Source: Nitrospinales bacterium (GTDB lineage: Bacteria; Nitrospinota_A; UBA7883; JACRGQ01). From it: DNA of 43,847 nucleotides. Positions 2 to 41,355 of the stretch are shown here, piece by piece. The notes beneath the pieces were generated by a model that worked only from the letters and a program-made list of their open reading frames with translations, was not told where the DNA came from and ran no database searches. The stretch lies in contig JAHFEJ010000019.1 in NCBI GenBank assembly GCA_023248535.1, positions 1 through 43,847 of the forward strand, given 5' to 3'. Position 1 is the first letter of the stretch. Every line of letters starts with the position of its first letter. Position numbers and translations under genes: made by a program.

Positions 2-736
2 CCGGGCCATCCCGCGCCATCCGGTATAGGCGTGGCCGTGGCGGGGCAGGTGGGGTACGCGGGCAAAAGCGTGGTCTTCAGCCCGAATCTGCCGTTCAAA
101 ACCGAATATCCACTGGGGCAAGAGCTGGAACGGGAATTCGGCATTCCGGTATTTGTGGAGAACGACGCCAACGCCGCCGCCATCGGCGAGCGGGTGTTCG
201 GCAAGGCGAAGGGGATGGACGATTTCATCGTAGTCACGCTTGGCACCGGCATCGGAAGCGGCATTTTCGCCAACGGGAAGCTGTTGAGCGGCCACACCGG
301 TTCCGGCGGCGAAGCGGGACACATGGTGATAGTTCCCGATGGGCCGCTGTGCGGCTGCGGCAACCGTGGATGTCTGGAAGCTCTTGCATCCGGCACGGCG
401 ATTGCCCGCGCGTTCAAGGAGAAAACCGGTATCGAAAACAGCGCCAAGGAAGTGTGCGGCCTTGCGCGCGCCGGGGACGAGACGGCCCGCGCGGTGTTGA
501 GTATCGCGGGAAATTATTTGGGGCACGGCCTCGTCAACCTCGTCAACCTCTTCGGGCCGCAGGCGATATTTTTCACCGGCTCGCTTTCCAACGCGCCCGA
601 TGCTTATTTTATTCCGGCATTCCGGCGGGTAAGGGAGCATTCGTTCGGCTCGGCGGGAGAAAACGTCGTGTTGGAGGTATCGCCGCTGGCGGCGGAAGTG
701 GGCGTTATTGGCGCCGCCGCCCTGCCGCTGCTTTGA
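2..736 (+). CDS. ROK family kinase (glucokinase-like), 5'-truncated by window edge
   Basis: Frame is open upstream of the listed GTG (PGHPAPSGIGVAVAGQVG...). ROK motifs: ENDANAAAIGE, LGTGIGSGI, and the zinc-type CGCGNRGCLEALASG. Confidence 0.9.
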   Translation, partial: PGHPAPSGIGVAVAGQVGYAGKSVVFSPNLPFKTEYPLGQELEREFGIPVFVENDANAAAIGERVFGKAKGMDDFIVVTLGTGIGSGIFANGKLLSGHTGSGGEAGHMVIVPDGPLCGCGNRGCLEALASGTAIARAFKEKTGIENSAKEVCGLARAGDETARAVLSIAGNYLGHGLVNLVNLFGPQAIFFTGSLSNAPDAYFIPAFRRVREHSFGSAGENVVLEVSPLAAEVGVIGAAALPLL

Positions 737-902
737 AATGAAAAATAACCACAGAGACACACGAGACGCAGAGAGGGAACGGCCTTGAGTTTGACACACG
801 CCCGCCCCTTTTCCTCCGCCCTCGCAAGGGGGGAATAAAAGGTGAGGTTTTTCTCTGTGCCTCCGTGCCTCAGTGGTTACGGTAAACATCGTGCGGAGGT
901 GG
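734..902. mobile_element. MITE-like dispersed repeat, copy 1, with imperfect terminal inverted repeats
   Basis: taaccacagagacacacgagacgcagag (746-) pairs with ttctctgtgcctccgtgcctcagtggtta (-879). Homologous to 41141-41275. Bounded by a perfect 21-bp direct repeat (713-733 / 903-923). Confidence 0.75.
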
Positions 903-1017
903 GCCGCCGCCCTGCCGCTGCTTCAATAACGCTGGCCGGACCATTCGCCGGATTGAATGATATAAATCACATTCCTTTTTTTGCATTTGCCCTCCGCAAT
1001 AGGTATATAAGGAGGCC

Positions 1018-35923: not shown

Positions 35924-35952
35924 AAAAAATATGGTGGGCGAAACAGGGCTCG
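35924..35952 (-). repeat. Partial duplicate of the tRNA-Val 3' end plus flank
   Basis: aaaaaatatggtgggcgaaacagggctcg identical to 36116-36144. Confidence 0.9.
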
Positions 35953-36123
35953 GCCACTGTCGCGGTCGCGTCACGCTCCCGCTCCATCGGCCCCCGCCCG
36001 CCGCTTTTCGGGCATCCATGCCCGAATGTGCTGCGCACTGCTCGCGCCGCGGCGCGCGTTTCGAGCCTCGCAGCGATTTCGTCAACCACAATGTCATCAT
36101 TGGCACATCAGCGGAAAAAAATA

Positions 36124-36199
36124 TGGTGGGCGAAACAGGGCTCGAACCTGTGACATCCAGCTTGTAAGGCTGGCGCTCTACCAACTGAGCTATTCGCCC
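36124..36199 (-). tRNA. tRNA-Val (anticodon TAC), CCA encoded
   Basis: Minus strand gggcgaatagctcagttggtagagcgccagccttacaagctggatgtcacaggttcgagccctgtttcgcccacca; folds as a cloverleaf with loop CTTACAA. Confidence 0.97.
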
Positions 36200-41119: not shown

Positions 41120-41140
41120 TTTTTTGAAGTCTCAGATTGG

Positions 41141-41275
41141 AATGAAATAATAACCACGGAGACACACGAGACACAGACGGGGATGGGGCGTGTATCCGCC
41201 TCCCCATCCTTCGCAAGGAAGGGGATGAAAAGGGAGGTTTTCCTCTGTGACTCCGTGTCTCTGTGTTTATAGCAA
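41141..41275. mobile_element. MITE-like dispersed repeat, copy 2
   Basis: aatgaaataataaccacggagacacacgagacacagac ... ccttcgcaaggaagggg ... aggttttcctctgtgactccgtgtctctgtgtttat; same layout as 734-902. Confidence 0.75.
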
Positions 41276-41355
41276 ACTTTTTAATCGTTCAGAATTATTT
41301 CGAGACCTGTAGTATTTTCAACTCGCTATTCCCCGGTTATACGCCGGGGAGCTTC

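Follow-up and report, generated by a model that had tools for sequence, protein, structure and literature searches.

This locus raises the question of how the last codons of a ROK-family gene came to stand twice, on either side of a small dispersed repeat, and whether such a long duplication is the habit of that repeat or the mark of a single unusual event. The window, that is, the whole stretch of DNA that was analysed, covers positions 1 to 43,847 of contig JAHFEJ010000019.1, the entire contig, and its relatives place the metagenome-assembled genome in Nitrospinota. Relatives recognised through the ROK gene include JAHFEK010000005 and JAKAGL010000001, which were matched by identity to G001 and G002 respectively, two genomes of the same genus.

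The ROK gene end and the corresponding site in relatives

The gene belongs to the ROK family by its match to Pfam PF00480 (212 bits), and the following features, all on the forward strand, describe its end and its neighbour.

2 to 736, +, ROK-family gene, its 5' end lost at the contig start, presently ending ...GAAALPLL-TGA
692 to 733, +, left and coding copy of the duplicated ROK 3' segment over its probable full length, by alignment to 893-923
713 to 733, +, left copy of the exact 21-bp direct repeat, encoding the last ROK residues, followed by TGA
734 to 736, +, new stop codon TGA, derived from the insert
893 to 902, +, GCGGAGGTGG, probable 5' remnant of the duplicated segment with 11 bp missing, matching ROK 692-701 at 9 of 10 positions
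903 to 923, +, right copy of the exact 21-bp repeat, which with CAATAA forms the ancestral gene end
924 to 929, +, CAA TAA, last codon and stop of the ancestral gene, in the same register as AAATAA of G001 and CGGTGA of G002
1018 to 1833, +, YwiC-like downstream gene (PF14256), the neighbour also in the empty-site genomes

The 21-mer GCCGCCGCCCTGCCGCTGCTT is repeated with zero mismatches at 713-733 and 903-923, as the earlier note had reported, and 169 bp (734-902) lie between its copies. When flanks of the same composition were shuffled, the longest direct repeat arising by chance was 10 bp. The same note had read the TGA after the first copy as supplied by the insert and the second copy as continuing into CAA TAA, and both readings are confirmed.

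A DNA search with positions 560-1300 matched G001 and G002, in each case as two hits whose target coordinates overlap by 20 bp. In both genomes the ROK end is contiguous with the region that follows the second copy in the window; the segment is present once and leads directly into the conserved intergenic region and ywiC. Two relatives thus have an empty site in which the segment occurs singly, the general mark of an insertion with target duplication, and the insertion scar proposed earlier, with relatives as its check, is borne out. It is close to certain that the insertion and the duplication at ROK arose together.

The relatives also bear on the ancestral gene end, for which ...AAALPLLQ* had been suggested. 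The ROK gene of G002 ends in GCCGCCGCCCTCCCGTTGCTC CGG TGA (...GAAALPLLR*) and that of G001 in GCCGCCGCCCTCCCGCTGCTC AAA TAA (...GAAALPLLK*), the LLR* and LLK* endings being in register with CTT CAA TAA (LLQ*), so that ...AAALPLL-X-stop is supported while the last residue differs. In G003 the gene ends LM* and the downstream sequence is different, and in G008 it ends LL*. As read from the sequence, the insertion with duplication, which fell in the last ROK codon, moved the stop forward by one codon and the predicted protein is shorter by one C-terminal residue, the consequence of which should be small. Positions 640-1040 were checked for terminator-like and promoter-like sites and none was found. 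The site is a resolved example of a small non-coding repeat entering the end of a gene nearly harmlessly.

The duplication may have been longer than the exact repeat. ROK-like sequence starts precisely where homology to the element ends (892/893), and the duplicated segment was probably 42 bp originally (692-733), its 3' copy having undergone an 11-bp deletion and one substitution. This reading draws on 10 bp outside the exact 21 bp, and a match as good as that of GCGGAGGTGG to ROK 692-701 has a chance probability of p about 0.005-0.01 in three controls.

The inserted element, its family and the flanks of other copies

The element and its second copy in the window comprise the following features, again on the forward strand.

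731 to 892, +, part of the insert with homology to the dispersed CACAGAG palindromes, 76% identical to the C65 copy, its best match
748 to 773, +, left palindrome arm ACCACAGAGACACACGAGACGCAGAG, DNA fold z = -3.25
852 to 878, +, right palindrome arm, ending ...CTCTGTGCCTCCGTGCCTCAGTGGTT
41133 to 41291, +, second family copy in the window, after a different gene and lacking a long flanking direct repeat

The insert had been equated with a repeat at 41141-41275. The two do belong to the same family, though the ROK insert and the 41133-41291 copy are only ~72% identical. Homology to the family, as aligned to C65, covers 731-892 and not the whole of 734-902. The trinucleotide CTT at 731-733 is common to ROK and the C65 copy of the element. 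Members have a variable middle between arms like ACCACAGAGACACACGAGACACAGAG and CTCTGTGCCTCCGTGCCTCTGTGGTT, and the DNA hairpin of the ROK insert was more stable than 200 of 200 shuffles. A covariance model (R1) built from the two window copies gave 104 matches in the own genome with both strands counted, hence roughly 55 places; matches were fewer in relatives (none in G002, one in G003, six in G001), with more in G008 and G010. One exact arm variant was also found in 20 stretches of viral contigs. A strict gapped pattern run over 145 genomes matched only one of the own copies and was too narrow to gauge the spread of the family. Rfam had no meaningful match on positions 600-1100, and a literature search on the arm sequences returned no paper. 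At one locus (L146) a pair of related palindrome copies stands in tandem, the two having an extra middle in common (GTCATACTGAGGGAGCGCTGGCGACCGAAGTATCTCTTTCCGG-like), and a similar middle is seen in L148 and L156.

On comparison of the ends, as in the terminal inverted repeat test for miniature inverted-repeat transposable elements (MITEs), the inner palindrome arms were kept in all copies and the outer ends varied by copy. The ROK copy reaches 17 bp beyond its left arm and 15 bp beyond its right arm, C46b, C65, C92, C14 and C77 reach about 20-62 bp, and C36 is a short form with only about 9 bp. Set against the five longer copies, the ROK insert, about 160 bp, is an internal fragment of the longer element.

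If the 21 bp, which the earlier note read as a target duplication, were a general property of the repeat, other copies should carry it. Some 50 other own copies (13 in the first tier and 40 further stretches) showed no convincing insertion-derived repeat comparable to that at ROK, and nine own copies were compared with the corresponding sites in G001-G003. The resolved empty sites amount to 0-5 bp overall (about 4 bp of overlap at C65, 3 bp at C14, about 0-2 bp at C36), and no long duplication was seen when C92, C77 and C46b were set against the sites of relatives. The generalisation is thus not supported; a long flanking duplication at one copy should not be taken for a family's transposition signature until other copies have been checked, and the ROK case has the look of one unusual event and not of the way in which the repeat ordinarily inserts. 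Since several copies have empty sites in sister genomes, the way in which the CACAGAG family spreads could be worked out by such comparison.

The C36 copy (L245, 1462-1617) is a palindrome that inserted cleanly between a pair of parS-like sites, immediately upstream of a parA-like gene. Its 15-bp flanking repeat was considered as a duplication and rejected: it is the ancestral parS pair, present without the element and about 37 bp apart in G001-G003.

Amongst 13 copies in relatives, one in G001 (C86; L129, 1470-1680) is flanked on either side, no more than 10 bp from the arm, by CCTCCTCGTTT, an 11-bp repeat; a shuffled control of L129 also reached 11 bp, anywhere in the 120-bp flanks and with no requirement of closeness to the arms. 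Here the last codons of a gene that reads as cheW type occur again on the far side of the element; the frame now ends ...VNEEVG* and would end ...VNEEA* if the insertion were absent. This copy is a possible second case like ROK, and the search for its empty site found only homologues of 35-40% identity.

A separate and stranger family lies at the 3' ends of tRNA genes. At 35924-36144 of the window, a 163-bp element is flanked by a 29-bp exact repeat of the tRNA-Val(tac) 3' end plus 8 nt. G003 has this element too, in G002 it is degraded and lacks the repeat, and G001 does not have it. Its relatives (L195, L205, L206, L208, L210, L212, L213, L214, L257, L259, L260, L261 and L266) occur downstream of tRNA-Met, Arg, Ser, Gln, Ala and Glu genes and of a tmRNA gene. 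In each case the flanking repeat (13-35 bp, often from the T-loop CGA) is of the 3' end of the particular gene concerned; the inner sequence is common to the copies and the repeat is not. Rfam on these elements returned only the tRNA itself and a below-cut-off overlap with the tRNA. A comparison of L185 with L186 shows tRNA-Val repeat pairs that match exactly inside either genome and diverge from one genome to the other after CCA, a pattern which suggests either homogenisation or independent insertion. Because tRNA-linked pairs behave in this manner, which suggests that paired repeats can be homogenised, the identity of paired copies alone does not date the ROK event.

Possible routes to the duplication

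The route we favour, at roughly an even chance of being right, is template switching during repair or replication, which would have captured an internal piece of the repeat and copied the ROK end again. Synthesis would reach the ROK end, switch at the common CTT to a repeat copy elsewhere, copy an internal stretch of it, and return to an upstream ROK position, so that the ROK end was copied a second time. The empty site, the duplication, the family membership and the replaced stop are observed; the copying error is inferred. This route is preferred because it would account for a piece taken from within the element, for the CTT shared at the left junction and for long repeats being so rare. In its favour are the empty sites in two genomes of the genus, the 3-bp microhomology at that junction, and the end of homology at 731 and 892, before the points reached by the five other compared copies; moreover, ROK-like sequence begins at the exact end of the element, and the other own copies are without a convincing long repeat, their resolved empty sites being 0-5 bp. 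Against it, the right junction is without microhomology, the 42-bp reading is based on the 10 bp discussed above, and the cheW copy of G001 hints that longer duplications may recur. The search for a donor copy found none closer than 76% identity. As short forms such as C36 exist, the truncation of the ROK copy is not proof of a different route.

The main rival, ranked below template switching and tentative by comparison, is that a short form of the repeat was transposed by a transposase acting in trans, with long and perhaps variable target-site duplications (21 or 42 bp at ROK, 11 bp at G001 cheW). The clean ROK insertion with its flanking duplication is what transposition would leave, the 11-bp repeat close to both arms of the G001 copy is likewise in the last codons of a gene, and duplications of 16-28 bp are known for IS1202-group elements (PMC10132070). 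However, about 50 other own copies are without such a duplication, the C65, C14 and C36 sites give 0-5 bp, the ISNCY transposase model NF033594 has no match in the genus, and the ends of the ROK copy are unlike those of longer copies. A tandem duplication of the ROK 3' end, followed later by insertion of the repeat at or near the junction of the copies, would lead to an identical end result with a duplication of the usual short length; we consider this unlikely, as the insertion must fall exactly at that junction and neither G001 nor G002 has a tandem duplication.

Site-specific integration at a gene 3' end, leaving attL/attR-like repeats as integrative elements do, is brought to mind by the 13-35 bp repeats that flank a different small element at RNA-gene 3' ends in the same genomes. 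It is nevertheless very improbable here: the ROK insert lacks an integrase, its similarity to the tRNA-linked element is limited to 15 bp and is not convincing, and other copies of its family are without such sites. Least probable of all is an assembly artefact, to which a metagenome assembly with a repeat family at about 55 places may be prone; both flanks form one conserved locus, and after the second copy come the ancestral stop and then the downstream gene also present in the relatives. On a wider and speculative reading, to which we attach little probability, CACAGAG palindromes spread in general by copying (primed by repair, replication or reverse transcription), sometimes re-copying the 3' end of the target gene. 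The duplications would then be long and variable in length (21 or 42 bp at ROK and 11 bp at G001 cheW), the protein would be hardly altered, and a similar process would also have given rise to the tRNA-linked elements of these genomes.

Comparison with known systems

Small palindromic dispersed repeats and MITE-like elements form a general class in bacteria. The CACAGAG family resembles them in being short, non-coding, hairpin-forming and multicopy, located between genes and at gene ends; it differs in its apparently weak and variable terminal repeats and in that its duplications are not of constant length, being 0-5 bp where resolved and at least 21 bp (21 or 42 bp) at ROK. Searches with NF033594 and for Y1 proteins found no partner transposase for the family.

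Among systems with a transposase, the IS1202 group of insertion sequences makes target duplications of 16-28 bp (PMC10132070), a length comparable to that at ROK. The ROK insert contains no transposase gene, and it alone falls in that range, the other copies being without the duplication; an IS1202-type transposase was rejected as the driver, since the NF033594 (ISNCY) model had no match in the genomes. The hairpin repeats also recall REP elements and their RAYT (Y1) transposases, and the own genome has eight Y1-type matches (L294-L301, most of them RAYT-like) as against 1-3 in relatives, although one of the eight does not read like a Y1 protein. The CACAGAG palindrome was absent around all eight in the fetched stretches (mostly about 1.5 kb on each side), so in these stretches the repeat does not flank a RAYT gene, and RAYT was rejected as the driver of its spread. 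On a hairpin scan of four Y1 loci, two carried other hairpins (GTAGGGGCGGGTTT... and GTAGGTGCGACA...), of GTAG type.

The tRNA-linked elements are reminiscent of the E. coli tyrT locus, which has 178-bp repeats that include the tRNA-Tyr 3' end. For the ROK insert, short-range template switching offers a further comparison; its literature concerns mostly eukaryotes, and at ROK the process is deduced from structure alone, yet the two are alike in that a distant templated piece is inserted together with a local duplication.
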